The translations under genes and the position numbers were made by a program. Shown here piece after piece: positions 3,047-26,383 of a stretch of DNA of 64,000 nt. The number at the start of each line of letters is the position of its first letter. Position 1 is the stretch's first letter. This DNA is from Rhodospirillales bacterium (GTDB lineage Bacteria; Pseudomonadota; Alphaproteobacteria; Rhodospirillales; SHVQ01), in assembly GCA_009694195.1 (NCBI GenBank), contig SHVQ01000008.1, positions 22,219 to 86,218 of the forward strand. The letters are read 5' to 3'. The notes below the pieces were generated by a model. That model made no database searches and was not told where the DNA came from. It saw only the letters and a list, made by a program, of their open reading frames with translations.

Positions 3047-4759
3047 ATGACCCGGATGACCCCCAGCGAGGCGTTCGTCGAAACGCTGGTCGCCCAGGGC
3101 GTAACGCACGTCTTCGGCATCGTCGGCTCGGCCTACATGGACGCGCTCGATCTCTTCCCGGCGGCGGGCATCCGCTTCGTCTCGGTCGCCCACGAGCAGG
3201 GCGGCGGGCACATGGCCGACGGCTATTCGCGCGTCAGCGGCCGCGCGGGCGTCTGCATCGCGCAGAACGGACCCGGGATCACCAATTTCGTCACCGCGAT
3301 CGCGGCCGCCTATTGGGCCCATTCGCCGGTTGTCTGCATCACGCCGGAGACGGGATCGGGCACCCAGGGCTTGGGCGGCTTTCAGGAGACGGAGCAGCTC
3401 CCGTTCTTCGAGAAGATCACAAAGTACCAGGCCCACGTGAACCGGCCCGACCGCTTGGCGGAGTTCACCTCCCGTTGCTTCGATCTCGCCCTCGCCGAAC
3501 GCGGTCCGACCCAGCTCAACATCCCACGCGACTACTTTTACGGCGACATCGACGTGGAGATCCCGAAGCCCAACCGGATCGAGCGCGCGCCCGGCTCGCC
3601 CCGGAGCCTCGACGAGGCGGCGGCGGCGCTCGCGGGTGCCCAGTTCCCGGTTATCATCGCGGGCGGCGGCGTCGTGATGTCGGGCGGCGTCGCCGAGGCG
3701 GCGGCGCTTGCCGAACACCTGTCGGCGCCGGTGGTCGCAAGCTACCTCCACAACGACGCCTTTCCGGCGAGCCATCCGCTGGCCTGCGGGCCGCTCGGCT
3801 ATCAGGGCTCCAAGGCGGCGATGAAGATCATCGCCCAGGCGGACGTGGTGCTCGCGCTCGGCACGCGCCTCGGCCCCTTCGGGACGCTGCCCCAGCACGG
3901 GATCGAATATTGGCCGAAGAACGCCAAGATCATCCAGGTGGACAGCGACCACCGGATGCTCGGCCTGGTGAAACGGATCGACGTCGGCGTCTGCGGCGAT
4001 GCCAAGGGTGCCGCCGCCGAAATTCTCACGCGACTCCGCACCATGAATATCAAAGTCGCGGCCCACGCGAACCGGGAGAAGCGCCTCGCCGAAGTCAAAA
4101 GGCAGAAGGACGCGTGGGAAGCCGAGCTCAATACCTGGGGCCAGGGCAACGGAACCCCCATCGCGCCCCGGCGGGCGCTCCGCGAGCTCGAAAAGGCGAT
4201 GCCGAAGAACGCCATGGTGACGACCGACATCGGCAACATCTGCTCGGTCGCCAACAGCTATCTCCGCTTCGAGAAACCCAACAGCTTCTTCGCGGCGATG
4301 AGCTTCGGCAACTGCGGGTACGCGTTCCCGACCGCGATCGGGGCCAAGGTCGCTTCCCCCGACCGGCCGGCGGTCGCCTACGTCGGCGACGGCGCCTGGG
4401 GCATGAGCTTCGGCGAGACGCTGACCTGTGTGCGCGAGAACATCCCCGTCACGGCGGTCGTCTTCAACAACCAGCAATGGGGCGCCGAGAAGAAGAACCA
4501 GGTCGACTTCTACAGCGACCGCTACGTCGGCACCAACCTCACGAACCCGAGCTTCGCGGCGATTGCCAAGGCCATGGGCGCCGACGGCATCCGCGTCGAT
4601 CATCCGGACCAGGTCGGCGACGCCCTCGGCAAGGCGACGCGCTCCGGCAAAGTGACGGTCATCGAGATCATGGTGACGCAGGAGCTCGGCGATCCCTTCC
4701 GCCGCGACGCCCTCAAGAAGCCCGTCCGCACGCTCGCCAAGTACAAGGATTACGTTTAA
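3047..4759 (+). CDS. xsc: Sulfoacetaldehyde acetyltransferase
   Basis: Thiamine diphosphate enzyme (570 aa) that desulfonates sulfoacetaldehyde with phosphate, giving acetyl phosphate and sulfite. The N-terminal Pyr domain carries the catalytic Glu50 (SVAHEQGGGHMADGY). The C-terminal TPP motif GDGAW starts near residue 447 and is closed by the NN of VVFNNQQWG. The length and the GSGTQGLGGFQETEQ region fit Xsc better than acetolactate synthase. The neighbours ald and pta supply the flanking steps of taurine dissimilation and make the call firm. RBS AAGGAAGG lies just upstream. Sulfite handling genes are not visible nearby. Confidence 0.92.
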   Translation: MTRMTPSEAFVETLVAQGVTHVFGIVGSAYMDALDLFPAAGIRFVSVAHEQGGGHMADGYSRVSGRAGVCIAQNGPGITNFVTAIAAAYWAHSPVVCITPETGSGTQGLGGFQETEQLPFFEKITKYQAHVNRPDRLAEFTSRCFDLALAERGPTQLNIPRDYFYGDIDVEIPKPNRIERAPGSPRSLDEAAAALAGAQFPVIIAGGGVVMSGGVAEAAALAEHLSAPVVASYLHNDAFPASHPLACGPLGYQGSKAAMKIIAQADVVLALGTRLGPFGTLPQHGIEYWPKNAKIIQVDSDHRMLGLVKRIDVGVCGDAKGAAAEILTRLRTMNIKVAAHANREKRLAEVKRQKDAWEAELNTWGQGNGTPIAPRRALRELEKAMPKNAMVTTDIGNICSVANSYLRFEKPNSFFAAMSFGNCGYAFPTAIGAKVASPDRPAVAYVGDGAWGMSFGETLTCVRENIPVTAVVFNNQQWGAEKKNQVDFYSDRYVGTNLTNPSFAAIAKAMGADGIRVDHPDQVGDALGKATRSGKVTVIEIMVTQELGDPFRRDALKKPVRTLAKYKDYV

Positions 4760-5401: not shown

Positions 5402-6397
5402 TCACGCGCGCGCGAGGGCGATGGCGGCGGAGGCCACGATGTCGTCCACCGTGGCGCCGCGCGAAAGATCGCTGATCGGTTTTGCGAAACCCTGCAGAAC
5501 GGGGCCGATCGCCTGCGCGCCCGCCAGGTACTGCGTCAGCTTGTAGCCGATGTTGCCGGCGTCGAGGTCGGGGAAGATCAAGACGTTCGCCCGCCCGGCG
5601 ACCGTGCTTTCGCCCTTCACCTTGCGCGCAGCCACGCTCGCGACGAGCGCCGAGTCGGCCTGGAGCTCGCCGTCAAACGCGATCTCGGGCGCCCGCTCCC
5701 GCGCGATGGCGAGCGCGCGTGTAACTTTGTCGACGCGGGGGTGTTGGGCGCTGCCCCGCGTCGAGAACGAAAGAAACGCCACGCGCGGCTCATCTTCGAG
5801 GAGCTTCCGGGCGCTCGCCGCCGACGCAAGCGCGATGTCGGCAAGCGCCTCCGCCGTCGGCTCCACGTTGACCGCGCAGTCGGCGAAGATGAGCGGCACG
5901 TCGCGTTGGCTCTGAAACTCCGGGATCACCATCAAGAAGAAGCTCGACGGCGTGTTGATGCCGGGGGCGAGCCCGACCGTCAGAAGGCCGGCCTCGATCA
6001 CGCGACGGGTCGGGTTGGCGGCGCCGCCGATCATGGCCGCGGCCTCTCCCTGTCGCACCATCATGCCGCCGAAATAAAGGGGCTTTTGGACGAGCCGCCG
6101 CGCGACCTTCGCGTCCACGCGCTCGCGCCCGGCCGCATAGGACGCGGCGTACGAGTCGATGCGCGCGTCGGTCTGGGGGTCGATAAGCGTAAGTCCGTCG
6201 AGCGACACGCCCGCGCGCGCCGCGGCCGCGGATATGCTTTCTTCCGAGCCGAGAAGGATCGGCTCTGCGATGCCCCCGTCTTGGAGCCGGCGCGCCGCGA
6301 GGAGAATGCGCGCTTCGGTGCCTTCCGGAAGCACGACGGGCAAGCGGCGGCGAGCTGCCGCGGTCACGATCCGATCGACAATACTCTCCACGCTCAC
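5402..6397 (-). CDS. pta: Phosphate acetyltransferase
   Basis: Short single-domain Pta (331 aa) that turns acetyl phosphate and CoA into acetyl-CoA and phosphate. The family core is visible in [13 protein letters not shown] near the N-terminus, [18 protein letters not shown] in the middle and the C-terminal segment [26 protein letters not shown] read in order. It is convergent with the GST gene and eight bases from it. Acetyl phosphate is the Xsc product, so this enzyme closes the taurine-to-acetyl-CoA route. It faces away from xsc, so it has a separate promoter in the 107-base gap shared with the citrate synthase gene. Confidence 0.92.
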
Positions 6398-14839: not shown

Positions 14840-16561
14840 CTACGCAGCCGACTCTTTGACCAACGTCTGGCCGGGTCGCACGCGGGCAAACTGCACGCTT
14901 TCGGTCGCGACGCAAGCAAGGTCGCCGTCCATCCGAACGCGGGTCGAGTAGGCCGGATCCTTGGCCGCCGGGTTCGAGAAGTCGGAGCGGAAATGGGCGC
15001 CGCAGGAATCCCGGCGCGCGGCCGACGACGCGACAATGGCGCGGCTCACCAGGATCAAATTCTTGAGGTTGAGCCAGTCGTGCCAAGTGAGGTTATAGGC
15101 GAGGTTGTCGGCGGAAACCCCCACTTGATCCAGCTCCCGCTCCAGGGCTTCGAGACCCGTCTCCGCCCGGTGGAGAGAATGGGAGTCGCGGATGATGCCC
15201 GCGTCCTCCCACATGAGCTCGTAAAGGCGCTCGCGGACGGATTCCAGGTTAGCCGGCGGCCGCTTGAGGGGCGCCCGGCATCGTTCGAGGGCGCTCTCGA
15301 TCGCGGCCTCGTCGGGCTCGCGCACGGCGCCCTGCTCCGCGACCCAGCGGGCCATGGTGTCGCCGGCGATGCCGCCGAACACGGTCGAGTTGGCGACCCC
15401 GTTGCCGCCGAGCCGATTCGCCCCGTGGACGCCACCCGTGTCCTCGCCCGCCGCGAACAAGCCCGTCAAGGCGGTCGCGCAGTCCGGCTGGAAGACCAAG
15501 CCGCCCATCATGTAATGCGCCGTCGGCACCACTTCGACCAAGCCGTGCACCAGATCGAACCCGTAGTCCGCGCAGCGCTCGACCATGCCTTTGAAGTTCA
15601 TCCGCACCTGGTCGTGGTCGAGGTGGCGCATGGTGAAGTAGACGCCGCCGTTGGCACTCGTGTTGCCCTTCCGCATCTCCTGGAACATGGCGCGACTCAC
15701 GATGTCGCGGGTCGCGCGGTCGGCGCGCGGATCGTAGTCGAGCATGAAGCGGCGCTCCTCGCCGTCGAGCAGGTAGCCGCCGAATCCGCGAAGGCCCTCT
15801 TCGATGACCGTGCCGGTGATGCGGGTCTCCGGGCCGGCGAGCAGGCCGGTCGGGTGGAACTGCACCATCTCCATATCGCGCAAGGTCAACCCGGCCCGGA
15901 GCGCCATGGCGAGCCCGTCGCAGCTCTTGTCGCCGGAGGGCGTGTGATACCTGTACATGGTCGGGCCGCCGCCGGTCGCCAGCAACACCGCCTTCGCCCG
16001 GACGAATAGGAATTCTCCCGTGCTCATCTCCATCATGAGGACACCGGCGACGGCGTCTCCGGACGGCGTCTTGATCAGGTCGACCGCGCGGGTGTCTTCG
16101 AGGCGATGGATGTCGCGGACCCACACCTGCTCGGCGAGCCGGTTGATGATCTCGATCCCCGTGAGATCGCCCTTGTGGACCGTGCGGTCGAAGGTCTGAC
16201 CGGCGAATGCCTTCTGGTGGATGCTGCCGTCCGGATTGCGGTCGAAGAAGCAGCCGAGCTCGTTTTCGAGCTCGCGCACCCGCTCGGGCGCGGTCGCGAC
16301 CAGGGTCCAGGCGAGGTCCTGGTCGTTGATCCAGGCGCCGCCTTCGATCGTGTCCATGAAGTGGCGCTCGACCGAGTCGCCCTTGACGAGGGCGACGTTG
16401 TAGCCCCCCTGCACCATGCGCGTGCATCCGCACTTTCCGAGCAGGCCTTTGACGGCGATGGTGATGGAAAGGCTGGAATTGGCCGCGTGGGCGTGGAGGG
16501 CCGCAAACAGGCCGGCGCCGCCGGCGCCGAGAATCAGGATATCGGTGTCGAGCCCCCTCAC
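14840..16561 (-). CDS. Succinate dehydrogenase/fumarate reductase flavoprotein-like subunit (non-canonical)
   Basis: A 573-residue flavoprotein of the SdhA/FrdA/NadB/AprA superfamily, begun at a GTG that overlaps the fumarase beta stop. FAD motif ILILGAGGAGLFAALHA spans residues 8-24. Dicarboxylate-site residues are kept: His236 (QFHPTG), the EEGLRGFGG loop, Arg290 (RDIVSRA), His349 (TAHYMMGG) and Arg383 (GANRLGGN). The position of the FAD-linking His of SdhA/FrdA is Cys46 (GCTRMVQGG), so FAD is probably non-covalent. In E. coli FrdA, loss of that His abolishes succinate oxidation but spares fumarate reduction. A fumarate-like acid as electron acceptor or an unusual substrate is therefore possible. 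Electron-transfer partners lie upstream in the operon. Confidence 0.85.
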   Translation of the reverse strand: MRGLDTDILILGAGGAGLFAALHAHAANSSLSITIAVKGLLGKCGCTRMVQGGYNVALVKGDSVERHFMDTIEGGAWINDQDLAWTLVATAPERVRELENELGCFFDRNPDGSIHQKAFAGQTFDRTVHKGDLTGIEIINRLAEQVWVRDIHRLEDTRAVDLIKTPSGDAVAGVLMMEMSTGEFLFVRAKAVLLATGGGPTMYRYHTPSGDKSCDGLAMALRAGLTLRDMEMVQFHPTGLLAGPETRITGTVIEEGLRGFGGYLLDGEERRFMLDYDPRADRATRDIVSRAMFQEMRKGNTSANGGVYFTMRHLDHDQVRMNFKGMVERCADYGFDLVHGLVEVVPTAHYMMGGLVFQPDCATALTGLFAAGEDTGGVHGANRLGGNGVANSTVFGGIAGDTMARWVAEQGAVREPDEAAIESALERCRAPLKRPPANLESVRERLYELMWEDAGIIRDSHSLHRAETGLEALERELDQVGVSADNLAYNLTWHDWLNLKNLILVSRAIVASSAARRDSCGAHFRSDFSNPAAKDPAYSTRVRMDGDLACVATESVQFARVRPGQTLVKESAA

Positions 16562-17169
16562 CCGCGGACCCCGATGGATTTGAGCGCAGCCGCCCGGCGA
16601 TCGGCCGCCCGGCCCTGCACGTCGGCGTAGAGGCTCGCCCCGTGCGAATCCATGCCGACAAGGAGCGGCCCGAACCCCCGGACCCTGAACTTCCAGAGGC
16701 TCTCCGGGTTGAGATCGTCGAGATCGACGTCCTCGATCCGCTCGATCCACGTGGTTTCGAGCGCGGCCGTGCCGCCGATCACGGCGAGGTAGGCGCCGCC
16801 CAAGTCGCGGAAAGCTTTCGAAGTCTCCGGCCCGAGGCCGCCCTTGCCGATGATGAGCCGGACGCCGTGACGCTCCATCAGCGGGCGGGTGAACCGCTCC
16901 ATGCGGGCGCTCGTCGTCGTGCCGATGCAAAGGGGGGCGTAGCCGGCCGGGTGCTCGGCCGACGGCGGGACCTTTTTCGCGCCCGGCGCCGTGTGAAGCA
17001 CGGCATGGTCCCGGAGATCGAAACGGGTCGTGCGGCCGCGGTCGAACATGTGGATGAGCGTCGCGTCCCGGATGCCGAACAGCGTCCCTTCCAACGTAAC
17101 GCGATCGCCGACGCGGAGCTTGCGAACGTCCGCTTCGGAACAGGGCAGGCGAAGCGTAAGCTCCGTCAT
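16558..17169 (-). CDS. Class I fumarase / L-tartrate dehydratase beta subunit
   Basis: The swivelling C-terminal half (203 aa) of a two-subunit iron-sulfur hydro-lyase. Landmarks are CIGTTTSARME, IIGKGGLG and the C-terminal FGPLLVGMDSHG. It pairs with the alpha subunit at 17636-18511. Two-subunit enzymes of this size may act on fumarate, mesaconate or tartrate, and sequence does not settle the substrate. Here the link to a succinate dehydrogenase-like complex favours fumarate or a substituted fumarate. It starts three bases after the Xre gene and its stop overlaps the flavoprotein start. Confidence 0.88.
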   Translation of the reverse strand: MTELTLRLPCSEADVRKLRVGDRVTLEGTLFGIRDATLIHMFDRGRTTRFDLRDHAVLHTAPGAKKVPPSAEHPAGYAPLCIGTTTSARMERFTRPLMERHGVRLIIGKGGLGPETSKAFRDLGGAYLAVIGGTAALETTWIERIEDVDLDDLNPESLWKFRVRGFGPLLVGMDSHGASLYADVQGRAADRRAAALKSIGVRG

Positions 17170-17172
17170 GGC

Positions 17173-17532
17173 CTACTCCCGGAGAGCCCGCATGACTGCT
17201 TTGGGATCGCGATCAATCGCCACCAGCAAGGCACGCGCAGGACCCTCTGGTACGCGGCGGCCCTGTTCCCAATTCCGCAATGTGTGAGCGCTGATGCGGA
17301 AGGCGCGCGCGAACCGATCCTGCGAGAGCCCGGTCTTTCCCCGAATCGCCGCAACGTCCAGCGGCTTAACGACGCGCAGCGTGCCGTCTTTTAGGGCAGC
17401 CCTAAGATCAATGGATGCCGTCGAGGTGTCATCCTCCGCCGCGTGCCGAGCAATATCCGATTCTGTGGTCCTCGCCACGATCCTGCGCCGGACGCGCGCC
17501 TTCCAGCGTGCCCGATCAACCGAATACTTCAT
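17173..17532 (-). CDS. Xre-type antitoxin/regulator between the two fumarase genes
   Basis: A 119-residue HTH protein of the COG2944-like antitoxin kind. The N-terminal stretch contains TESDIARHAAEDDTS, typical of antitoxins paired with BrnT/RelE-like toxins. The HTH is GLSQDRFARAFRISAHTLRNWEQ near residues 72-95 (read in two pieces). The ATG at 17532 overlaps the stop of a 19-codon BrnT remnant. A perfect 13-bp inverted repeat lies upstream. It is inserted between fumarase alpha and beta and ends three bases before the beta start. It may regulate itself and thereby the downstream genes. Confidence 0.82.
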   Translation of the reverse strand: MKYSVDRARWKARVRRRIVARTTESDIARHAAEDDTSTASIDLRAALKDGTLRVVKPLDVAAIRGKTGLSQDRFARAFRISAHTLRNWEQGRRVPEGPARALLVAIDRDPKAVMRALRE

Positions 17533-17588
17533 GATAAACCTCGCGCGCGAAGATTGGCCTCGCTCTTCGTGTCGTCCCACTCAAACAT
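17529..17588 (-). pseudogene. BrnT (DUF497) toxin remnant
   Basis: Nineteen codons starting at the ATG at 17588 read MFEWDDTKSEANLRARGLS and then stop. This is the characteristic N-terminus of BrnT/DUF497 toxins (FEWDxxKxxxNLxKHG), which are normally about 90 residues. The stop overlaps the Xre start in the manner of a toxin-antitoxin operon. The toxin core has been deleted, leaving the operator, the start and the antitoxin. Confidence 0.75.
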
Positions 17589-17596
17589 GGTTGACT

Positions 17597-17630
17597 ATAA
17601 GCCATTGACTTATATAGGTCAATGGCTTAT
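17597..17630 (-). promoter_or_regulatory. Perfect 13-bp inverted repeat, probable toxin-antitoxin operator
   Basis: Arms ATAAGCCATTGAC (17597-17609) and GTCAATGGCTTAT (17618-17630) are perfect complements around an AT-rich 8-base centre (TTATATAG) that may supply a -10. The repeat begins nine bases before the BrnT-remnant start and lies just after the fumarase alpha stop. An autoregulatory operator for the Xre protein is the simple reading. Confidence 0.7.
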
Positions 17631-17635
17631 GTCGC

Positions 17636-18511
17636 CTAAAATCCCAGCTCCACGCCCTTCGGTGTGAAGGTGGCGGTCGCGCGCCTGGCCGAGTGGCATT
17701 GAATGTTGACGGCGACCGGGTTCATGGTGATGTGGGTCGCCGCCGTCTCCACATGCACGGCGAAGGCGGTCGCGTTGCCGCCCAAGCCCTGCGGCCCGAT
17801 GCCGAGGCTGTTGACGGCCCGGCTCAGCTCCTGTTCCAGCTTCGCCCCTTCGGCGTCCGCGCAGCGGGACCCGAGTGCCCGCGTCGCCGCGATCTTGGCC
17901 AGGTGCATGCAGAGGTCCGCCGTGCCGCCGACCCCGACGCCGACGATGGTCGGCGGGCACACGCGGCCGCCCGCCTCGATCACCTTGTCGACGACGAAGG
18001 TCTTGATGGCGTCGACGCCCTCGGCCGGGATCGCCATCTTGAGGAAGGAGCCGTTCTCCGAGCCCGATCCCTTCGGGATCATCTCGATCGTGAGCGTCTC
18101 ATCCTCGGCCGAGAAGTCGATGTTGATGACGGGGATGCGCTCACCCGAGGACGTATGCGCGTTCACCCGCGTGATCGGATGCACGATCGAGGAGCGGAGC
18201 GGATGCTCCCGCGTCGCGCGCTCGCAGCCCTTGATGATCGCTTCCTTGAGGGCATGACCGTCCACCTGCACGCGCCTCCCGATGGTCACGTTGTAAATGG
18301 GAATTCCGGTATCCTGGCAGAGGAGATTGTTGGTCTTCTCGGCGACCCCGATGTTCTCGATCATCGTCTTGAGGATGCTCTTGCCGGTCGGATCGGTCTC
18401 GGCCGCATCGAGGCGCTTGAAGCCCTCCTTGATATCCGGCGGCAATATCTTCAGCGCCCGGATGTAGAGAAGCTTCGCGGTTTCCTCGACGGCAGCGAGA
18501 TCGACGATCAT
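17636..18511 (-). CDS. Class I fumarase / L-tartrate dehydratase alpha subunit
   Basis: The catalytic iron-sulfur half (291 aa) of the two-subunit hydro-lyase. The three 4Fe-4S ligands are Cys65 (NNLLCQDTG), Cys185 (GGRVCPPTIVG) and Cys272 (NIQCHSARRA), with spacing close to that of E. coli FumA. It adds water across a C4 unsaturated dicarboxylate. The beta subunit lies 466 bases downstream, separated by the decayed toxin-antitoxin pair, which is unusual because the two halves are normally adjacent. It follows the cytochrome subunit gene by 47 bases. Confidence 0.92.
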   Translation of the reverse strand: MIVDLAAVEETAKLLYIRALKILPPDIKEGFKRLDAAETDPTGKSILKTMIENIGVAEKTNNLLCQDTGIPIYNVTIGRRVQVDGHALKEAIIKGCERATREHPLRSSIVHPITRVNAHTSSGERIPVINIDFSAEDETLTIEMIPKGSGSENGSFLKMAIPAEGVDAIKTFVVDKVIEAGGRVCPPTIVGVGVGGTADLCMHLAKIAATRALGSRCADAEGAKLEQELSRAVNSLGIGPQGLGGNATAFAVHVETAATHITMNPVAVNIQCHSARRATATFTPKGVELGF

Positions 18512-18558
18512 GCTAGGTTTCCCTCTGCTGTAGGCCCCATCCGTGGGCAGGTCGAAGC

Positions 18559-18900
18559 TCAGGATGCGACGAGAAAGAACGCGAGTCCGACGAGCACGCT
18601 CAGCCCCCCGGCGGCGGCGACGAGGGTCTTCTGCCAGTCGCGCCAGGGAAGAAATTCAACGGCGAGCACGCGGAGGCCCCCCGTCAGGTGCGCGGCAAGC
18701 AGCACGATCAGGAGCGCCTCGGCGATCTTGACCGGCGGCTGAGCCGACCACCGGAGAAAGCCGTCGAGCGCGGCCTCGCCCTCGATGGCGAACGCGAGGA
18801 CATAGAAATGCACGGGCAAAAAGAGAGCGAGCGCGAGGCCGGAGACGCGGTGAAGGACGAACGCCCAATAGGTCGGGTGGTTGCGGTGCCCGCTCGCCAT
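18559..18900 (-). CDS. Succinate dehydrogenase-like cytochrome b subunit (SdhC type)
   Basis: A 113-residue membrane anchor with three hydrophobic helices. Conserved features are the quinone-site Ser and the Arg of HRVSGLALALFLPVHFYVL, and His residues able to bind heme b (PVHF, AAHLTGG). The ATG at 18900 overlaps the upstream anchor stop. It carries electrons between the iron-sulfur subunit and the quinone pool. Confidence 0.85.
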   Translation of the reverse strand: MASGHRNHPTYWAFVLHRVSGLALALFLPVHFYVLAFAIEGEAALDGFLRWSAQPPVKIAEALLIVLLAAHLTGGLRVLAVEFLPWRDWQKTLVAAAGGLSVLVGLAFFLVAS

Positions 18901-19244
18901 CAGGCTGCCCCGTAAAGGCCCCACGCGGCCCGGAATCCCAGCGCCAAAATCAACCCGGCGGTGGCAACGGCGAGTCCGTCCACGACGCCCCGCCGGAGCG
19001 CAGTCATTTCGTGGAGGATCGTACGAATTCCGATCGGCCCGTGCACCGCGACGGCGGCGACGAACAGGCTGTAGAACGCCAGCCAAGCGCCGCTGCCGCG
19101 GACGCGCGCGAGAATCTCGGCGCCGGTCAATCCGCCTTGCACCGCGACGATAATGGTCGCGAGATGGACGATGACGCAAAGCCCAAGCACGGCGGCGCTT
19201 CCCCGCTGGGCGACCCACAGCAGAACTTGGCCGCGCGGCGTCAT
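18900..19244 (-). CDS. Succinate dehydrogenase-like membrane anchor (SdhD type)
   Basis: A 114-residue three-helix anchor. VIVHLATIIVAVQGG and VAVHGPIGIRTILHEM place His residues in helices as in heme-binding anchors, and the HGxxGxRxxLxE pattern is the SdhD/FrdD hallmark. Its start overlaps the iron-sulfur subunit stop (ATGA). The gene order B-D-C before fumarase and the flavoprotein is not the housekeeping sdhCDAB order. Confidence 0.8.
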   Translation of the reverse strand: MTPRGQVLLWVAQRGSAAVLGLCVIVHLATIIVAVQGGLTGAEILARVRGSGAWLAFYSLFVAAVAVHGPIGIRTILHEMTALRRGVVDGLAVATAGLILALGFRAAWGLYGAA

Positions 19245-19957
19245 ATCTGGCCCTTGAGAGCCGCCCAGGCCGCCGCCCGCTTGAGGCCGGCGATCGAGGC
19301 CGTCGGGTTCAAATGCTTCGGGCAGTGCTCCTGGCAGCTTTGGTGCGAGTGGCAGGCGTGGCAGCCCGCGTCGCCGGCGACCGCGGCGAGGCGCGTCGCC
19401 TGCCCGCCGTCGCGCGTGTCGCTAAAGAGCGTCCACGCGCGATTGAGCGCGGCGGGGCCGAGGTAGTCCCGGTTCCATGCGACCACGTCGCACGCCGCAT
19501 GGCAAACCCCGCAGCCGATGCATTCGATCCCGGCGTCGGCCTGCTTGCGCGCAGCCGAGTCGGGGCGCACCACGGCAAAGCCGTCCCGCCGGCTCGCGGT
19601 CGGCTGGAACTGCCCCTTCGCACGCGCCCATTTGTCGAAGAACTCCCGCATGTCGACGGCGAGATCCTTGATCACCGGAAGATTTCGAAGCGGCGCAATG
19701 GTGAGGTCGCCGTTTTTCGCGACGCGGTCGACGTGGGTGCGGCAGGTCCAGCGCGGCCGGCCGTTCACCGTCATCGCGCAGGAACCGCACATGCCGACCC
19801 GGCAGGCGAACCGATAGCTCAAGGAGGCATCGATCCTTCGCTGGATGTGGGTCACCACGTCGAGCACGGTTTGGCTCGCGCGGCGCGGCACCGAATAGGC
19901 GACGAACGCGCCCCGCTCGCTGCCCCGCCAGACTTGCACGCTCAACGTCTCGGTCAT
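19241..19957 (-). CDS. Succinate dehydrogenase/fumarate reductase iron-sulfur subunit-like
   Basis: A 238-residue electron-transfer subunit. 2Fe-2S ligands are Cys52, Cys57, Cys60 and Cys72 (CRVGMCGSC then TC). The 4Fe-4S motif is CIGCGVCHAAC, without the usual following proline, and a third cluster lies in CHACHSHQSCQEHCPKHLNP. I placed the start at 19957 (MTETLSVQV) because it follows the ceramidase-like gene stop by seven bases. An in-frame start at 20008 would add 17 unlikely residues. It links the flavoprotein to the two anchors. Confidence 0.9.
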   Translation of the reverse strand: MTETLSVQVWRGSERGAFVAYSVPRRASQTVLDVVTHIQRRIDASLSYRFACRVGMCGSCAMTVNGRPRWTCRTHVDRVAKNGDLTIAPLRNLPVIKDLAVDMREFFDKWARAKGQFQPTASRRDGFAVVRPDSAARKQADAGIECIGCGVCHAACDVVAWNRDYLGPAALNRAWTLFSDTRDGGQATRLAAVAGDAGCHACHSHQSCQEHCPKHLNPTASIAGLKRAAAWAALKGQI

Positions 19958-19964
19958 GTCGGGA

Positions 19965-20774
19965 TCATAGGCGGTCGAGCGCCGGGCTGCCACGCCCGCC
20001 GTCTTCACGGCGCAGCGCCGGCAGCATGAACATCACCATGCCGATCGCAGCGGCAGCAAAAACGTGCTTCAGCGTGTGGCCGCTCACGACACCGCCGAGC
20101 GCGGCGAACACGGCGTGGTCGCCAACTTCGAGCAGCTTGGCGACACCGTAGAGGACGAAGACCCAAATGATGTAAGGGACTTTCGTGTACCGCGCGCGCG
20201 GGAACAGCCAGCAGATCACCGGCATCCCGAGCATCGGGAGAAACTGGACGATGCCGTAGGGGCGGAGATCGCCGCGCCCGTTGTGTTCGGTCCATGCCCA
20301 ATAGCCGACGCTCGCGACGCCGATGAGCACGAAGCCGGCGAGCACATGGGCCGCGGCCTGCCGATCGATACGGTCGGTCACGATGGCGGCGAGAAAGGAC
20401 ATGAAGGCAACCGTCATCGGCAGCCGGTCCCAGATGAGCGTCCCGTTGCCGGGAGCCCAGTGATAGTACGCGGATCCGAGGCCTATTCCGATCGCGGCCA
20501 GGAAAAAGAGCGCGTAGGGAGCCGCCTCCTCAGGCGTGTCGAAACCACCGCCTCGGAGCGAGCGCCGGACGGCCAGGAGGCCGAGCGCGCCGGCCGCGGC
20601 GAACGCCACATTCGACAATACGTTCGCCGCGTTGGGAACGCCGAGCCAGCCGCGGGCGTCGGCGAATTCGTGGTACGCGGGCGGCTGCGGGACGGGCGGG
20701 AACATTGCGAAAACGGCCGCGGCCGCGACCACGAAGTAGCCGACGACGGCGCCGATTCGAGTGTGGAAGGTCAT
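19965..20774 (-). CDS. Alkaline ceramidase-like (CREST superfamily) membrane protein
   Basis: A 269-residue protein with about seven membrane helices. CREST hydrolase motifs are visible: GLGSAYYHWAPGN...WDRLPMTVAFM near residues 98-125 (Ser, His, Asp) and GGVVSGHTLKHVFAAA near 230 (His pair). These proteins are zinc-dependent amide hydrolases (ceramidase, PAQR, Per1). Its place between the ligase and dehydrogenase genes of a catabolic operon is odd. It could be a transport-like or lipid-modifying bystander. The substrate is unknown. Confidence 0.75.
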   Translation of the reverse strand: MTFHTRIGAVVGYFVVAAAAVFAMFPPVPQPPAYHEFADARGWLGVPNAANVLSNVAFAAAGALGLLAVRRSLRGGGFDTPEEAAPYALFFLAAIGIGLGSAYYHWAPGNGTLIWDRLPMTVAFMSFLAAIVTDRIDRQAAAHVLAGFVLIGVASVGYWAWTEHNGRGDLRPYGIVQFLPMLGMPVICWLFPRARYTKVPYIIWVFVLYGVAKLLEVGDHAVFAALGGVVSGHTLKHVFAAAAIGMVMFMLPALRREDGGRGSPALDRL

Positions 20775-20783
20775 CGGCGTCCT

Positions 20784-21653
20784 TCAGGCCAAGGCTTCGG
20801 CGAGCGCGGCGCCGACATCGTTCGGCGTCGCCAGCACGCGGACTCCGGCGCGCTCAAGGGCGCGGCGCTTGGACGCATAGCTTCCCTTGTCGCCGACCAC
20901 GATCGCGCCGGCATGACCCATCTTGCGGCCTTCGGGCGCGGCACCGCCGGCGATCAGCGCGACGACGGGCTTCTTCATCGTGACCGCGTATTCGGCCGCT
21001 TCCTCTTCCATGGTGCCGCCGATCTCGCCGACTATGACGACAGCTCGCGTGCCCGGGAACGTGTCCAAGGCTTCGAGCGCTTCGCGCGTGGTGGTGCCGA
21101 TGACCGGATCGCCGCCGATCCCGACGAACGCCGATTGGCCGAAGCCCGCCTGGCAGATGCTGAGGCAGACGAGCGTGCCCAAGCTGCCGCTCCGGGAGAC
21201 GACGCCGACCGCGCCCGGGCGGACGATCTTCGCGTTGAAGGCGGGCATGAAGCCTGCGAAACATTCGCCCGGCGTGACCGTACCGGCCGTGTTGGGTCCG
21301 AGCACGCGCGTCCCGGCCTCCTTCGCCGCGGCGAGGATATACATGGTGTCCTGCACCGGCACGTGTTCGGTTAACACGACAAGTCCCTTGGCGCCTGCTT
21401 CGATGGCGTCGAGCGCAGCCTCCTTGACGCCGAGCGGCGGAATGAACAGTACGGAGACATCGAAGCCGTTTCCTTTCATGGCGGCCTTGGCGCTCGCGTA
21501 AACCGGGAGGCCCAAGTGCGTCTCGCCCCCTCGCTTCGGATTGACGCCGCCCATGATGGCCGTGCCGTACTCCCGCATGCGTTCGGCCCAGAACGTTCCT
21601 TGTTTTCCGGTGATTCCCTGGATCAGCACGCGATCGGGTCGCCTGAGAATCAT
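20784..21653 (-). CDS. ADP-forming acyl-CoA ligase alpha subunit (SucD-like, divergent)
   Basis: A 289-residue CoA-binding subunit, the same size as SucD. The N-terminal Rossmann motif is IQGITGKQGT and the phosphohistidine is His247 (GRKMGHAGAIV). It differs from housekeeping SucD at substrate-site motifs: GPNTAGTVTPGE replaces GPNCPG and SGSLGTL replaces SGTLTYE. Thus it probably activates an acid other than succinate, or works in the reverse direction. The ATG overlaps the beta subunit stop. Malate-CoA ligase and the sulfoacetate-CoA ligase SauD are known relatives with other substrates. Confidence 0.85.
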   Translation of the reverse strand: MILRRPDRVLIQGITGKQGTFWAERMREYGTAIMGGVNPKRGGETHLGLPVYASAKAAMKGNGFDVSVLFIPPLGVKEAALDAIEAGAKGLVVLTEHVPVQDTMYILAAAKEAGTRVLGPNTAGTVTPGECFAGFMPAFNAKIVRPGAVGVVSRSGSLGTLVCLSICQAGFGQSAFVGIGGDPVIGTTTREALEALDTFPGTRAVVIVGEIGGTMEEEAAEYAVTMKKPVVALIAGGAAPEGRKMGHAGAIVVGDKGSYASKRRALERAGVRVLATPNDVGAALAEALA

Positions 21654-22771
21654 CGCGCCGCCTCCACCGCGGCCTTGCAGGCGAGCGCCATGGTCGGGAA
21701 GGGATCGAGGCCGAGGCGCTTCTTCAGAATGGCGATCGCCTCCACGTCGCCGGTGCCGTCGATCGAGAAGAAGATCGGGACCGAAGGCTTCAGCTCCTGC
21801 CACGCCGCCGCGACGCCTTCCATCATCACGTCGCAGCGCGCGAAGGCGCCGCAGAAGTTGACGACCAGGCTTTTGACGTGCGGATTGGCGAGCACGAGCT
21901 CGAGCGCGGGCTTGGCGCGCGTATACGACTCGCCGCCGATCTCGAGAAAGTTGGCGGGCCGCCCGCCCCAGTGACGGACCATGTCCATGGTCGCCATGGT
22001 GAGCCCGGCGCCGTTGGCGAGCACGCCGACGTTGCCGTCGAGCTCGATGAATTTGAGCGCAAGGTCCTTGCCCCGCTGTTCGAGCGGCGACAGCGTCTCC
22101 GGCGTGCCGCGGGCGGCAAGCTCGGCGTGCCGGGGAGCGGCAGAATCGTCCATGACGAACTTGCAGTCGAGCGCGACCGGGCCGGACGCCGTCAACGCGA
22201 GCGGGTTCACTTCCAGGAGCTCGGCGTCGTGGCGGCGATAGACGCTGTAGAGGCTTACGAGAAACTTGGCGACGGCCGGCTCGTGATCTCCCAGATCCAG
22301 TCCCCGCACCAGCGCGCGGGCCGCTTCATCGGCAAGGCCTGATCGGATGTCAACATGGTGTCGCCGCACGCGCTCGGGTCTGGCGGCGGCGATCTCCTCG
22401 ATATCCATCCCGCCTTCGGTGGAGAAGAGGACGAGCGGTTGGCGGGCGGCGGCGTCGTTGAGAACCGCCGCGTAAAGCTCGCGCTCGATCGCGACCTGCT
22501 CTTCGACGAGCACGCGCGCGACCGCGTGGCCGCCGATCGCCATGCCGAGAATCCCGCGCGCCGCAGATTCGGCCTCTTCCGGCGTCTGGGCCCGCCGGAT
22601 GCCGCCCGCCTTGCCGCGCTTTCCTGCCGGCACCTGCGCCTTGACCACCACCGGCCCAAGCGCGCGGGCGGCGGCGGCGGCTTCCTCGGACGTCGTTGCG
22701 AGGCGGCTGCGGGGGACCGCGATCCCCGCTTCCGCGAGCAGCGGCTTCGCCGCGCATTCCTCGAAATTCAT
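21650..22771 (-). CDS. ADP-forming acyl-CoA ligase beta subunit (SucC-like, divergent)
   Basis: A 373-residue ATP-grasp subunit starting MNFEECAAKPLLAEAGIAVP. Family marks are VLVEEQVAIERELYAAV, LLEVNPLAL, ANGAGLTMATMD and GGRPANFLEIGG. The loop NFCGAFARCDVMMEG stands where SucC has NIFGGIVRCD, another departure from housekeeping enzymes. It starts five bases after the acylating aldehyde dehydrogenase stop. Together with the alpha subunit it interconverts an acyl-CoA plus ADP and phosphate with the free acid plus ATP. Confidence 0.85.
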   Translation of the reverse strand: MNFEECAAKPLLAEAGIAVPRSRLATTSEEAAAAARALGPVVVKAQVPAGKRGKAGGIRRAQTPEEAESAARGILGMAIGGHAVARVLVEEQVAIERELYAAVLNDAAARQPLVLFSTEGGMDIEEIAAARPERVRRHHVDIRSGLADEAARALVRGLDLGDHEPAVAKFLVSLYSVYRRHDAELLEVNPLALTASGPVALDCKFVMDDSAAPRHAELAARGTPETLSPLEQRGKDLALKFIELDGNVGVLANGAGLTMATMDMVRHWGGRPANFLEIGGESYTRAKPALELVLANPHVKSLVVNFCGAFARCDVMMEGVAAAWQELKPSVPIFFSIDGTGDVEAIAILKKRLGLDPFPTMALACKAAVEAAR

Positions 22772-22776
22772 GCAGC

Positions 22777-24201
22777 TTACTTGCCGTATTTCGCCCAGTA
22801 GGCGCCGAACAGCGCCTCCTCGGACGGCTTGTCCTCGGGGATGACGGTCACGAGATGGGTCACGTTGATGAAGTGCCGGTAGTTGAGATTTTCGCTGATC
22901 GAGTTTCCGCCCCAGGTGCCGCACCCCATGCTGAGGGTGAAGTTGAGGCCGTTGTCGAAGCTGCCGCCGTTGCCGAACGCGTGGGCCTGGTTGACGAGCA
23001 CGCGGACGACGTCGAGCTCCTCGGCGAGCCGCCTCGCGTTGGCCATGGCCTTCGTATGGATGCCGACGGAGTGTCCGCGGCCGACGAAATCGAGCACGGC
23101 CCGCACCTGGGCGACCGCGGCGTCGAAGTCTTTCGCTTTGTAGAGGGTGAGCACGAGCGCGAGCTTCTCGTCGGAAAACGGACGATCGGGCCCGGCGCCT
23201 TCGTCCTCGACCATGAAGAACTTGGCGTTCCCCGCGGCCTCGGGGAGCCCGGCCTCGCGGGCGAACACGGGCGCATCCTTGGCGATGACCCGCCGGTTGA
23301 GCTTGCCGCCGACCCAGAGCGTCTGCTCGACCTTTTTCTTCTCCTCCGGCGAGCAGAGATAGCCGCCCGCCGCCTGCAAGGCCCCGAGCGCCCGGTCGTA
23401 CACATCCGCAAGGATGGTGACCGAGTTCTCGGACGAGCACGAGGTCGCGTTGTCGAAAATCTTGGACGCGCAAATCTTATCGGCCGCGTCCTTGACGTCC
23501 GCCGTCGAATCGACGATGACGGGCACGTTGCCGGTGCCGACGCCGATCGCGGGCGTGCCGCTCGAATAGGCCCGGCGCACGTTGTCCTGGGAGCCCGTCA
23601 CCACCACGAGATCGGCGGCCTCCATCAGCGCCTGGGTGAGCGCCTTGTCCACCGGCTCCGGCAACACTTGCACCAGGTCCTCGGGGGCGCCGATCCGCCG
23701 GAGCTCGCTTTGCATGTGCTCGACCGTGCGGGCGGTCGTCCGGTACCCCGCGGGCGAGGGCGCAACGACAATCGCGTTGCGGCCCTTGACCGCCATCATC
23801 GCCTTGTTGACCGGCGTGGCGGCGGGGTTGGTCGCGGGCACGACGGCGGCGACGACGCCGACCGGCTTCGCGTACTTGACGATGCCCCGCGCCCGGTCCT
23901 CCTCGATCACGCCGACGGTCTTGACGCGCAACAAGTCGCGCAGCGTGCCGAACGTCTTCCGCTGGTTCTTGACGATCTTGCTCGCGACGTTCCCGAGACC
24001 GGTGTCGGCGGCGGCAAGCTCGGCCAGCTCACGCGCGCGCTCCGGCTTGTAGATCGACCAGGCGAGCGCGGTCACCGCCTCGTCGACCCGCGCCTGGTCG
24101 GCATTCGCGAACGCTGCCATGGCGGCGCGCGCCCGCGCGATCAGTCCGGGGATGGCGGCGGCGGGACCGGTTTCCGGCTCCGCGCGCGAGATGGCGGTCA
24201 T
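22777..24201 (-). CDS. CoA-acylating aldehyde dehydrogenase (sulfoacetaldehyde or semialdehyde type)
   Basis: A 474-residue EutE/AdhE/SauS-family enzyme that oxidises an aldehyde to the acyl-CoA, or reduces it back. Catalytic Cys255 sits in NATSCSSENSVTIL. Nucleotide binding is marked by VPATNPAATPVNKAM and GIGVGTGNVPV-type glycine motifs, and the C-terminus has SENLNYRHFINVTHLV. The similarity pattern recalls the acylating sulfoacetaldehyde dehydrogenase SauS, and xsc is in this window. Acylating succinate semialdehyde dehydrogenase is an equal alternative. It is the first catalytic gene of the operon, after tctC. Confidence 0.85.
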   Translation of the reverse strand: MTAISRAEPETGPAAAIPGLIARARAAMAAFANADQARVDEAVTALAWSIYKPERARELAELAAADTGLGNVASKIVKNQRKTFGTLRDLLRVKTVGVIEEDRARGIVKYAKPVGVVAAVVPATNPAATPVNKAMMAVKGRNAIVVAPSPAGYRTTARTVEHMQSELRRIGAPEDLVQVLPEPVDKALTQALMEAADLVVVTGSQDNVRRAYSSGTPAIGVGTGNVPVIVDSTADVKDAADKICASKIFDNATSCSSENSVTILADVYDRALGALQAAGGYLCSPEEKKKVEQTLWVGGKLNRRVIAKDAPVFAREAGLPEAAGNAKFFMVEDEGAGPDRPFSDEKLALVLTLYKAKDFDAAVAQVRAVLDFVGRGHSVGIHTKAMANARRLAEELDVVRVLVNQAHAFGNGGSFDNGLNFTLSMGCGTWGGNSISENLNYRHFINVTHLVTVIPEDKPSEEALFGAYWAKYGK

Positions 24202-24277
24202 CGGTCGGGGCTCTCCATGGTTTTGGCGGCGGTTGCCGCCACTATAACACCGGAGCCTCCGTCGTGGAGATGGCCGG

Positions 24278-25222
24278 TTAGCGCGGGAGACTGTCGAGGT
24301 GCCGTTTGACCGTGCGGTGAAAGTCGATGACCGTCGTCATGGCATTCTCCGGCGGCTCTTTCCGGATGCACGTGTAGGTCCTCACGCAAAAAACACCCCA
24401 GTCCGTCGTTTGGAGAGCCTTGTCGAAGACGCCGGTCAGCGCGCGAATGCGATCTCCAGGCGTTCCCGCCCGCACGACGAGAGCGCGGAAATTATAGAGG
24501 TTGCCGACGTCGATCCCGAGCTCCTGCGACGTGGTCACGGTCGGAAACGCATAGTGGCGTACGTCGTCGAACACGACGAGGGGCCTAAGTTGGCGCGCCG
24601 AGACGTACCGGGTGACGTCGCCCGGCTCCTCATACAGAGCATCGGTCTCGAGATCGACCGTCGATCGATAACGCTCGACCGGATTTGGGAACGGGATGTT
24701 GACCATCGGATAGCCGAGCGACGCCAGCGACCGGAGGGCAACGTCGTCGTCGGTCCCGAATCCTGAAGTCGCGACCTTGAGGGCCCGCGGGTTCGCCTTG
24801 GCATGCCCGAGCAGGTCCTGGATGGTGGCGAACGGGCTTTGTCTCGGGACGAACAGCATCGAGGGCGAATTCTGCGCCCAGGCCACGATGGCAAAATCGT
24901 CGGGCTTTGCGGCACCGAGACCGGCCGCCCAGGACGCGACCGAGAGCCCCACCAGGGTTGCCACCGTGTAGCCGTCGGGGGGCCGCCCGGTGAGCTTCCC
25001 GAGGCCTTCGTTGCCGGAGGCGCCGGCGACGTTCGAAACACGGATCGGAACACCCAGCAGAGGCTCGGCCAGTCTCGCCAGCGTCCGCGCCATCAAGTCG
25101 GCGCCGCCCCCCGGCCCGAAGGTGACGATCAGATCGATCGGCCGCGCGGGAAACGGCTCCTGGGCTTCGACCGGCCCGGCGGCGAGCCACCCGGCGAGAA
25201 TCCCGGCGACGATGCGGAGCAT
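24278..25222 (-). CDS. Tripartite tricarboxylate transporter substrate-binding protein (TctC/Bug family), orphan
   Basis: A 314-residue periplasmic receptor with signal peptide MLRIVAGILAGWLAAGPVEA. The mature start QEPFPARPIDLIVTFGPGGGADLMAR is the Bug family signature, and PPDGYTVATL follows. Bug proteins bind carboxylates for the TctAB permease. No tctA or tctB is present, as is common for orphan Bug proteins. It lies 76 bases upstream of the aldehyde dehydrogenase, in the same direction, so its ligand may be the operon's acid substrate. Confidence 0.88.
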   Translation of the reverse strand: MLRIVAGILAGWLAAGPVEAQEPFPARPIDLIVTFGPGGGADLMARTLARLAEPLLGVPIRVSNVAGASGNEGLGKLTGRPPDGYTVATLVGLSVASWAAGLGAAKPDDFAIVAWAQNSPSMLFVPRQSPFATIQDLLGHAKANPRALKVATSGFGTDDDVALRSLASLGYPMVNIPFPNPVERYRSTVDLETDALYEEPGDVTRYVSARQLRPLVVFDDVRHYAFPTVTTSQELGIDVGNLYNFRALVVRAGTPGDRIRALTGVFDKALQTTDWGVFCVRTYTCIRKEPPENAMTTVIDFHRTVKRHLDSLPR

Positions 25223-25323: not shown

Positions 25324-26058
25324 ATGGCAGACACCGCGCCCGTCCAGCCGTTTGCGAGCGAGGCCGATGCCTTTCGTCACGGCCTCCGGGACGCGCTCGG
25401 GCTCCCCGCGCTCGTGCTCCTCGCGAGCATGACCGGGTTCGGTTCGCTCGCGCGCGAAAGCGGCTTCACGGCGCTGATCGCGGTTCTGTCATCGGCGGCC
25501 GTGTGGGCGCTGCCGGGGCAAGTCGTGATGGCCGAGCTCTACGCGGCGGGCGCGCCGCTCCTCGCGATCGCCGTGGCCGTGGCCGGCGCGAATGCGCGCT
25601 TCCTCCCGATGACGGTCGCGTTGATCCCGCAGTTCCAACAGGCCCGCACGAGCTGGCGCTGGCGTTATCTCCTGGCCCAGATGATCTCCGTCAACACGTG
25701 GGCCTTGGCGATGCGCCGAGGGCCGTCGCTGCCGCCGGAGCAGCGCGCGCCTTACTTCTCGGGCGTCTCGCTCGTGTGCATGGGGTCGGGCGTGATCGGA
25801 ACCGCCTGCGGCTTCGTGCTGGCCGGCGCGCTTCCCCGCGTCGTCACCCTCGGCCTCGTGTTCCTCAACCCGGTCTACTTCGCGCTTCTGTTCGCGGGCG
25901 TCCGCCACCGCGCGGGCGTGCTCGCCCTCCTGATCGGCGCCGCGCTCGGGCCCACCATCCACCTCGCGTGGCCGCGCTGGGGATTGCCGATGACCGGCCT
26001 CCTCGCCGGCACCATCGCCGTCCTCCTCGACCGGGCTTGGGAGAAGCGCCGTGGATGA
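25324..26058 (+). CDS. azlC: AzlC family branched-chain amino acid exporter large subunit
   Basis: A 244-residue inner membrane protein of the LIV-E family: HGLRDALGLPALVLLASMTGFGSLARE near the start and FLPMTVALIPQF in the middle (split motifs). With AzlD it exports branched-chain amino acids or analogues. The ATG directly follows a short divergent gap to tctC. It overlaps azlD by eight bases. Confidence 0.87.
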   Translation: MADTAPVQPFASEADAFRHGLRDALGLPALVLLASMTGFGSLARESGFTALIAVLSSAAVWALPGQVVMAELYAAGAPLLAIAVAVAGANARFLPMTVALIPQFQQARTSWRWRYLLAQMISVNTWALAMRRGPSLPPEQRAPYFSGVSLVCMGSGVIGTACGFVLAGALPRVVTLGLVFLNPVYFALLFAGVRHRAGVLALLIGAALGPTIHLAWPRWGLPMTGLLAGTIAVLLDRAWEKRRG

Positions 26059-26383
26059 GCCGTCGCTCTGGATCGTGCTCGCGGTCGCGACGGGCGCAAC
26101 CTATCTCTGGCGCGGGCTCGGCGTCGCGGTCGCGAGCCGCATCAGCCCCGAAGGCGACTTTGCGAGTTGGATGTCCTGCGTCGCCTACGCGATGCTGGCG
26201 GGCCTGATCGCGCGGATGATTCTCTTTCCCGCCGGAGTCCTCGGCGAAACCCTGCTCGAAGACCGCCTGGCCGCGACCGCGGCCGGCCTCTCCATCTTCT
26301 TCATATTCAAGAGAAATCTACTTCTTTCGACGGTTGCGGCGACGGTGCTTTTCATCGCGATCATTGCCGTCCGCGGGGCCTAG
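26051..26383 (+). CDS. azlD: AzlD family branched-chain amino acid exporter small subunit
   Basis: A 110-residue four-helix membrane protein, the usual AzlD size, with the family pattern TGATYLWRGLGVAVASRI and SWMSCVAYAMLAGLIARM. It overlaps azlC by eight bases, so it is the coupled partner. The 81 bases that follow, before the convergent methyltransferase, hold only an AT-rich TTTGTAC-repeated stretch. Confidence 0.87.
   Translation: MDEPSLWIVLAVATGATYLWRGLGVAVASRISPEGDFASWMSCVAYAMLAGLIARMILFPAGVLGETLLEDRLAATAAGLSIFFIFKRNLLLSTVAATVLFIAIIAVRGA

Follow-up and report, generated by a model that had tools for sequence, protein, structure and literature searches.

Here we describe an operon that very likely serves the catabolism of sulfonates. 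It consists of eleven co-directional genes on the minus strand, running from position 25222 down to position 14840 of a 64,000-nucleotide stretch of DNA (referred to as the window) from a Rhodospirillales bacterium (contig SHVQ01000008.1 of assembly GCA_009694195.1, positions 22,219 to 86,218). An initial annotation had read these genes as a single chain from an aldehyde to a hydroxy acid, made up of non-housekeeping enzymes of the tricarboxylic acid (TCA) cycle type, with succinate semialdehyde as the plainest starting compound and a substituted C4 acid as another possibility. All of the genes that it named are present, on one strand. Pfam confirmed the families of 10 of the 11; the second small anchor (18900..19244) was assigned by its position and its conservation in relatives, without a separate Pfam scan. 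No tctA or tctB gene was labelled within the window. The eleven genes in their order of transcription, followed by two genes found elsewhere in the window, are:

24278..25222, minus strand: TctC-type periplasmic solute-binding protein (PF03401, 78.7 bits)
22777..24201, minus strand: SauS, CoA-acylating sulfoacetaldehyde dehydrogenase family (Aldedh; NF047625, 795.6 bits, cut-off 600)
21650..22771, minus strand: SauC-like beta subunit of an ADP-forming acyl-CoA ligase, GIV replaced by GAF (PF08442, ATP-grasp_2; PF00549, Ligase_CoA)
20784..21653, minus strand: SauD-like alpha subunit of the ligase, succinate-site Tyr replaced by Thr (PF02629, CoA_binding; PF00549)
19965..20774, minus strand: Ceramidase/CREST-like membrane protein (PF05875, 38.7 bits, cut-off 32.5)
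19241..19957, minus strand: SdhB-like iron-sulfur subunit (Fer2_3/Fer4; TIGR00384, 193.3 bits, cut-off 88; Cys motifs)
18900..19244, minus strand: small SdhD-like membrane anchor (position, conservation in relatives)
18559..18900, minus strand: SdhC-like cytochrome b-type anchor (PF01127, Sdh_cyt, 39.8 bits)
17636..18511, minus strand: class I fumarase-like alpha subunit, proposed sulfoacrylate hydratase (PF05681; NF004885, 306.9 bits, cut-off 276)
16558..17169, minus strand: class I fumarase-like beta subunit (PF05683; TIGR00723, 142.3 bits, marginally under the cut-off of 145.15)
14840..16561, minus strand: complex-II-like flavoprotein, proposed 3-sulfopropionate dehydrogenase (FAD_binding_2/Succ_DH_flav_C; residues; tree)
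3047..4759, plus strand: Xsc, sulfoacetaldehyde acetyltransferase, proposed user of the SauS product (TIGR03457, 910.8 bits, cut-off 676.4)
5402..6397, minus strand: Pta, phosphate acetyltransferase, following Xsc (PF01515, 358.9 bits)

The overlaps between coding regions that had been noted initially were found at three junctions, each of four bases: sauC/sauD (ATGA), iron-sulfur subunit/sdhD (ATGA) and fumB/flavoprotein (GTGA). The sdhD and sdhC genes share a single base, three further junctions have gaps of 5, 9 and 7 bases, and larger gaps separate tctC from sauS (76 bases), sdhC from fumA (47 bases) and fumA from fumB (466 bases), the last of which had gone unmentioned. (This gap, 17170-17635, contains a short helix-turn-helix open reading frame and a very short one that, as we take it, resembles the start of a BrnT-type toxin. 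In many relatives, unlike in the window, fumA and fumB almost abut.) We find that a division into two modules describes the operon better than one linear chain does: module 1 comprises SauS and the ligase, and module 2 comprises the complex-II-like subunits and the fumarase.

The flavoprotein of module 2 lacks the His that links flavin adenine dinucleotide (FAD) to SdhA and FrdA, as the initial annotation had stated. At that site there is a Cys, both in the window and in 100 of 100 relatives, and a Glu likewise takes the place of the substrate-site Thr of SdhA, FrdA and NadB in the window protein and all 100. The same Cys and Glu occur in all 120 of the nearest proteins (the window's own included) and at all 6 of the additional plasmid loci. 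Beside the Glu, a short insertion carries Arg in 98 of 101 proteins and Lys in the other 3. Unchanged in 100 of 100, by contrast with these replacements, are H232, E245, R248, R287, H355 and R390, which include the catalytic Arg and the substrate-site His pair and Arg. (The numbering is that of the FrdA literature, and is one higher if the initiating Met is counted.) The invariant Cys could hold FAD covalently, and the Arg or Lys of the insertion, together with the Glu, may shape a pocket for a sulfonate.

Profile models and phylogeny set the flavoprotein apart from named families. It fell below the cut-off in the best 25 of the 32 NCBIfam models that it matched, the highest-scoring being TfrA (thiol:fumarate reductase, NF004900; 506.2 of 718 bits), and it also fell short of the model of the L-aspartate oxidase NadB (TIGR00551; 352.3 of 452.75 bits). 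When 41 members of the family (35 of them chosen at random) were placed in a tree with SdhA, FrdA and NadB of E. coli and with SdhA and NadB of the window's own genome, the family formed one clade with a support of 0.997 under midpoint rooting; separation from SdhA, which the initial annotation had put forward as a check, was thus borne out. The iron-sulfur subunit holds the ligand motifs for three Fe-S clusters, although which Cys motif serves which cluster is presumed here. A structure model of the flavoprotein, built with 28 close sequences, had a mean predicted local distance difference test (pLDDT) score of 72.6, with low values near the active site, so that the insertion could not be placed; comparison of folds indicated a complex-II fold and nothing beyond that.

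Relatives of the flavoprotein were then used to compare gene neighbourhoods. One scan gave at least 80 loci with close relatives (67-74% identity), mostly in Betaproteobacteria and Rhodospirillales, and plasmid records added Methylobacterium, Pseudomonas, Sulfitobacter, Paracoccus, Pseudorhizobium, Cupriavidus, Rhodococcus and two haloarchaea. The module recurs in Betaproteobacteria, Rhodospirillales, Rhodobacterales, Methylobacterium and Pseudomonas; only parts of it were found in Rhodococcus and the haloarchaea. Removal of 2 loci without a usable flavoprotein hit (L200 and L203) and of 6 repeats from 109 merged loci left 101 unique loci, 63 of which have flanks of 4 kb or more on either side; neighbours were counted within 10 kb. 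Controls were 20 hand-picked 20-kb stretches at round positions in genomes of the same order. Note that neighbour labels reflect tblastn similarity to chosen references, some from the same loci, and that no locus was scored by its own reference. (Four of the loci compared, L023, L035, L037 and L048, are titled Bordetella parapertussis; L023 and L037 supplied references for two neighbour genes and L048 supplied one for SuyA. Our home-made gene caller for the relatives misses genes on some contigs, for example L011, L137, L142 and L208.) SuyB was scored only against the protein of Cupriavidus pinatubonensis, whose gene lies next to hpsN and hpsO in the kind of cluster described in PMC11382572 (here and below, papers are cited from the excerpts available).

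The initial annotation had named a search for the conserved gene set in other genomes as a check, and conservation was what we found: the iron-sulfur subunit was present at 60 of the 63 loci, sdhC also at 60, and fumarase alpha at 54 (46 of them at 60% identity or more), with none of the three in any of the 20 controls. Genes for sulfonate metabolism adjoin many of these copies. SuyB, which cleaves sulfolactate, was near the flavoprotein at 31 of 63 loci (at 60% identity or more), TctC at 30 (30% or more), TauE at 19 (35% or more) and Xsc at 6 (60% or more), each with 0 of 20 in the controls, and a ComC-like Ldh2 protein (40% or more) was near it at 29 loci and in 2 of 20 controls. At least one strict marker (SuyB, TauE, Xsc or SauS) was found at 47 of 63 loci and in 0 of 20 controls; looser thresholds gave 50 of 63 against 2 of 20. 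(Before loci were barred from being scored by their own references, the counts were 32 of 63 for SuyB and 48 of 63 for any strict marker.) The fullest island, in Methylobacterium oryzae, combines the module with TauE, a dicarboxylate symporter, both SuyA and SuyB, dehydrogenases resembling SlcC and ComC, a sulfate exporter and a molybdopterin oxidoreductase; among its genes is a sulfite-oxidase-like one. Similarly, plasmid pRHL1 of Rhodococcus jostii RHA1 carries genes for the flavoprotein, iron-sulfur protein and fumarase with TauE-like, SlcC-like, ComC-like and SuyA/B genes; no anchors were detected at that locus. A thiamine diphosphate-dependent enzyme (L023:3778-5523 and L145:8308-9909), which scores below the cut-offs for acetolactate synthase and Xsc, lies near the module at 21 of the 63 loci.

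Module 1 bears on sulfonates through both of its enzymes. The aldehyde dehydrogenase exceeds the cut-off of the SauS model by almost 200 bits, and both ligase subunits fall under the curated cut-offs for SucCD (320.8 of 336 and 347.5 of 370 bits). Succinyl-CoA synthetase uses a Tyr and a GIV motif to bind the distal carboxylate; for HpfYZ, a 3-sulfopropionate ligase, the proposed residues are His and GIN (PMC11489063). Among ligase relatives with more than 50% identity over more than 80% of the length, alpha has Thr for the Tyr in 37 of 37 and beta has GAF for GIV in 38 of 38; the SucCD proteins of E. coli and of the window's own genome keep Tyr and GIV or GIM. Departure of both subunits from the substrate motifs of SucCD, as initially noted, is therefore real, and a SucCD-like pair without the succinate-site residues of SucCD adjoins SauS, as expected of SauCD. 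Nor does the ligase carry the His and Asn of HpfYZ, in place of which it has Thr and Phe. The relatives with Thr and GAF include the ligases of L139, L141, L143 and L149, all of them beside Xsc; L143 and L149 additionally carry SoeB, SoeC and tripartite tricarboxylate transporter (TTT) genes, the order in L149 (Azospirillum argentinense) being TTT-SauS-SauC-SauD-SoeB-SoeC-Xsc. Of 40 relatives from the same order that were compared with wider flanks, 37 keep the trio of sauS, sauC and sauD together, and two of the other three contigs end just after sauS.

In the window itself an alanine dehydrogenase adjoins Xsc and Pta (3047-6397). The taurine-type region to which these genes belong (1894-6397 and L164) holds alanine dehydrogenase, Xsc, GST and Pta in the window, and just outside the window there are an omega-aminotransferase (AptA model, 645.5 bits for a cut-off of 500) and an MmsA-type dehydrogenase. 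At 8 of 41 SauS loci (L107-L110, L113, L116, L126 and L128) there are matches beside SauS to GlmE, GlmS and GlmL, whose curated models describe a B12-dependent methylaspartate (glutamate) mutase and its accessory protein. We know of no role for these three proteins in sulfonate metabolism.

The genome as a whole and the order were surveyed as well. Contig C1 carries another SucC, SucD and SdhA (56%, 70% and 55% identical to those of E. coli), so the operon is not the housekeeping set, in agreement with what had been proposed from the window. A SuyAB pair, made up of a small protein and a GD_AH_C protein, lies on contig C35 (SuyA 54% and SuyB 69% identical to C. pinatubonensis). (The 2.5-Mb draft genome has 16 genes of the Ldh_2 family, including a close group of four on C35.) Of the 297 genomes of the order that were surveyed, 54 encode the flavoprotein and 56 encode a SauS that scores about 600 bits or higher, with 44 encoding both; SuyB was found in 46, 29 of which have the flavoprotein. 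By Fisher's test, in which the relatedness of the genomes is uncorrected, the P values are 1e-31 for flavoprotein and SauS and 4e-14 for flavoprotein and SuyB. Note that four candidates were scored per genome, and thus the SauS and flavoprotein counts may be low. (A count of Xsc, 8 of 297, was discarded because it missed genome G094, where Xsc occurs at 77% identity in L199.)

Taken together, these findings suggest that the operon probably breaks down sulfonates by way of two modules, one activating and reducing sulfoacetate and the other converting 3-sulfopropionate through sulfoacrylate to 3-sulfolactate. For module 1 we regard sulfoacetate as the likely substrate, since Thr and GAF are also what the ligase relatives next to Xsc and SoeBC have, in contrast to the His and GIN proposed for HpfYZ. 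The ligase would use ATP to join sulfoacetate to CoA, SauS would reduce the resulting sulfoacetyl-CoA to sulfoacetaldehyde, and Xsc with Pta would convert that to sulfite and acetyl-CoA. The pairing of an acylating aldehyde dehydrogenase with a ligase, as initially described, holds; its direction from aldehyde to acid probably does not, since a consumer of sulfoacetaldehyde, Xsc, lies in the same window, and the route is therefore likely to run from acid to aldehyde, as described for the sulfoacetate pathway of Bilophila (PMC12890257).

For module 2, oxidation of 3-sulfopropionate is the function that we favour from sequence and gene context. We infer this substrate from the company of a succinate-type dehydrogenase, a fumarase and, at about half of the loci, a sulfolactate-cleaving enzyme: sulfolactate is malate with a sulfonate in place of one carboxylate, so that working backwards leads to sulfoacrylate and then to 3-sulfopropionate. 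The flavoprotein complex would oxidize 3-sulfopropionate to sulfoacrylate, with electrons passing from the flavoprotein to the iron-sulfur subunit, the b-type anchors and quinone, as in complex II. The two-subunit fumarase would then add water to give 3-sulfolactate. A fumarase that forms L-malate would form the R enantiomer of sulfolactate, and by this analogy the product should be (R)-3-sulfolactate. SuyAB takes that enantiomer (PMC12421959), and the pair on C35 would cleave it to pyruvate and sulfite. The substituted C4 acid of the initial annotation is thus retained in its sulfo form and not in its chain length, a C3 sulfonate being the likely substrate of the dehydrogenase and fumarase; similarly, the enzymes of the aldehyde-to-hydroxyacid chain hold up, and it is their union in one chain that gives way to two modules on the SauS and ligase signatures and on gene context.

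The strongest alternative is nonetheless a single chain of C3 compounds, in which SauS and the ligase would convert 3-sulfopropionaldehyde to 3-sulfopropionate with formation of ATP, and the complex-II-like enzyme and fumarase would carry it on to sulfolactate. This would match the gene order exactly, HpfX and HpfYZ of Enterococcus gilvus belong to the same Pfam families and perform the first two steps on C3 sulfonates, and at least 16 genomes, counting that of the window, have a contig on which the SauS match begins within 31 kb of the start of the flavoprotein match. We consider it unlikely, given that the ligase motifs are Thr and GAF, which also occur in relatives next to Xsc and SoeBC, rather than the His and GIN proposed for HpfYZ, that SauS passes the cut-off for sulfoacetaldehyde dehydrogenase, and that SauS is within 10 kb of only 5 of the 101 unique flavoprotein loci. 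An HpfX/HpfYZ-type assignment for module 1 was lowered on account of the ligase residues. (An aldehyde dehydrogenase of Enterococcus raffinosus, 40% identical, was not used as an HpfX reference, since it is flanked by a phosphate acyltransferase and a butyrate kinase.) More familiar chemistry fares worse. Housekeeping or duplicate TCA genes leading from succinate semialdehyde to malate would fit the family names and are scarcely credible here: SucCD and SdhA are on C1, the ligase lacks both succinate-site motifs of SucCD, the flavoprotein forms its own clade and the dehydrogenase is of the SauS type, so that the succinate-semialdehyde chain of the initial annotation was rejected. If the dehydrogenase and fumarase acted instead on a C4 acid such as succinate, or on a methyl-C4 acid (taking methylsuccinate through mesaconate to citramalate), this would be in keeping with the fumarate hydratase match of fumarase alpha and with the GlmE, GlmL and GlmS genes beside SauS in several relatives, and class I fumarases can act on mesaconate. 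We judge this improbable because SuyB, or any strict sulfonate marker, is so often within 10 kb, because GlmE is within 10 kb of the flavoprotein at only 7 of the 101 unique loci, and because SdhA is encoded elsewhere in the genome.

A further possibility is that the flavoprotein runs in reverse, reducing sulfoacrylate to 3-sulfopropionate with quinol in the manner of fumarate reductase. Absence of the FAD-linking His, the position of TfrA as the best curated model (below its cut-off) and the fact that 3-sulfopropionate is a known microbial product all speak for this. In several relatives, however, TTT-type uptake genes, SuyAB, TauE, sulfate exporters or sulfite oxidases adjoin the module, in keeping with consumption, and the invariant Cys could take over the covalent hold on FAD; reversal therefore seems to us quite improbable, if marginally less so than a C4 substrate. 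Several observations nevertheless weigh against oxidation of 3-sulfopropionate as we propose it. Judging by mutant work, an enzyme without the FAD-linking His would be expected to reduce more readily than it oxidizes. It is not obvious how a Glu in the substrate site would help to bind a sulfonate, and fumarase alpha passes an ordinary fumarate hydratase model, so that plain fumarase chemistry is possible. At 16 of the 63 loci there is no strict sulfonate marker, and SuyB is missing from 25 of the 54 genomes of the order that encode the flavoprotein. The controls number only 20 and come without exception from the window's order, whereas most loci are from Betaproteobacteria. Two of the neighbours are common in general: Ldh2 genes, judging by the number in the window's own genome and by their occurrence in controls, and TauE-family genes, which are present in 14 of 14 named control genomes. 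The window's own genome is 73% complete, and the Glm genes beside SauS in several relatives are left without an explanation.

The hydration step is also not uniform, which is a last point on that side: 9 of the 63 loci have no fumarase alpha, 4 of them having AcnX and 5 neither (AcnX is within 10 kb at 6 of 63 overall). Rhodobacterales, Pseudorhizobium, Pseudomonas and two Cupriavidus plasmids have another class I fumarase, whose alpha subunit is 31-37% identical. In the two haloarchaea the flavoprotein, the iron-sulfur protein and TauE are kept together with a SuyAB-like pair, and a gene of the argininosuccinate lyase family stands at the position of the fumarase; it passes the argininosuccinate lyase cut-off and also matches, below cut-off, the XcbC model (coenzyme M synthesis). 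(The haloarchaeal pair is of the UxaA type; in Haloarcula its identity to SuyB is no more than about 34%, for which reason it was not taken as true SuyAB.) Such swaps fit a step that needs some hydratase; alternatively, they could mean different substrates. The fumarase-free loci L026, L207 and L210 have a split aconitase X (PF04412 and PF01989) and a DUF3604 protein, and L026 additionally has a glyoxalase-like protein.

Two neighbouring features can be noted here. The Ceramidase/CREST-like gene (19965-20774) was labelled at 0 of 146 other annotated loci, and its plasmid matches are at most 46% identical. An AzlC/AzlD export pair at 25324-26383, which may export a product, diverges from the operon, and AzlC is also present at 11 of 41 SauS loci.

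3-Sulfopropionate is formed from sulfoquinovose, the sugar of the plant sulfolipid, by E. gilvus and from homotaurine by other bacteria; its breakdown is described as previously unreported in the same source (PMC11489063), as in need of investigation in PMC9594981 and, in the case of Bilophila, as having an unclear mechanism in PMC12890257. In the literature that we covered, from which subscription journals are mostly missing, no genes were assigned to the route from 3-sulfopropionate through sulfoacrylate to sulfolactate (a report elsewhere is possible), nor was any paper found that links sulfonate, succinate dehydrogenase, fumarate hydratase and suyB, or any that treats degradation of sulfosuccinate together with sulfoacetaldehyde. 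Module 2 is a candidate for these missing genes, and the operon would let the carbon of 3-sulfopropionate be used and its sulfur be freed. It is possible, and we put this forward only tentatively, that a widespread, unnamed branch of complex II acts as a 3-sulfopropionate:quinone oxidoreductase with 8-alpha-S-cysteinyl-FAD and a recruited fumarase, in bacteria and haloarchaea. If so, the module with its fumarase would be a sulfonate mirror of the succinate-fumarate-malate arm of the TCA cycle, and the invariant Cys raises the question of how the flavins of complex II are tethered and tuned. The residue signature could serve to rename proteins now called fumarate reductase flavoprotein, FAD-binding protein or L-aspartate oxidase, all of which names occur among the best 120 of 8000 scored flavoprotein relatives. 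Named carriers such as R. jostii RHA1, Methylobacterium radiotolerans and Paracoccus versutus make the question of 3-sulfopropionate directly testable.

The systems closest to the operon each resemble one part of it. SauS and SauCD of Bilophila wadsworthia (PMC12890257, PMC12625764), compared here by their description, share with module 1 the dehydrogenase, the SucCD-like ADP-forming ligase and a TTT-type receptor; in the window, however, the trio is followed by the complex-II-like and fumarase-like module, and sulfoacetaldehyde would go to Xsc and not to isethionate. HpfX and HpfYZ of E. gilvus (PMC11489063) likewise combine an acylating dehydrogenase and a SucCD-like ligase that act on a short sulfonate, but with His and GIN where the operon has Thr and GAF, and E. 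gilvus makes the 3-sulfopropionate that the operon would consume. The sequence of reactions proposed for module 2 is that of the homotaurine route of Roseovarius nubinhibens, where conversion of 3-sulfopropionate through sulfoacrylate to sulfolactate was proposed in the thesis of J. Mayer, as cited in PMC11489063; the citing passage names no genes. From SdhA and FrdA of complex II the flavoprotein differs by the Cys for the FAD-linking His, the Glu for Thr, the insertion with Arg or Lys and its separate clade. Finally, SuyAB and SlcC-like and ComC-like genes of the sulfolactate breakdown pathway (PMC12421959, PMC11382572) stand beside many copies of the module, the difference being that sulfolactate comes in that pathway from sulfolactaldehyde or 2,3-dihydroxypropane-1-sulfonate, whereas module 2 would supply it from 3-sulfopropionate.

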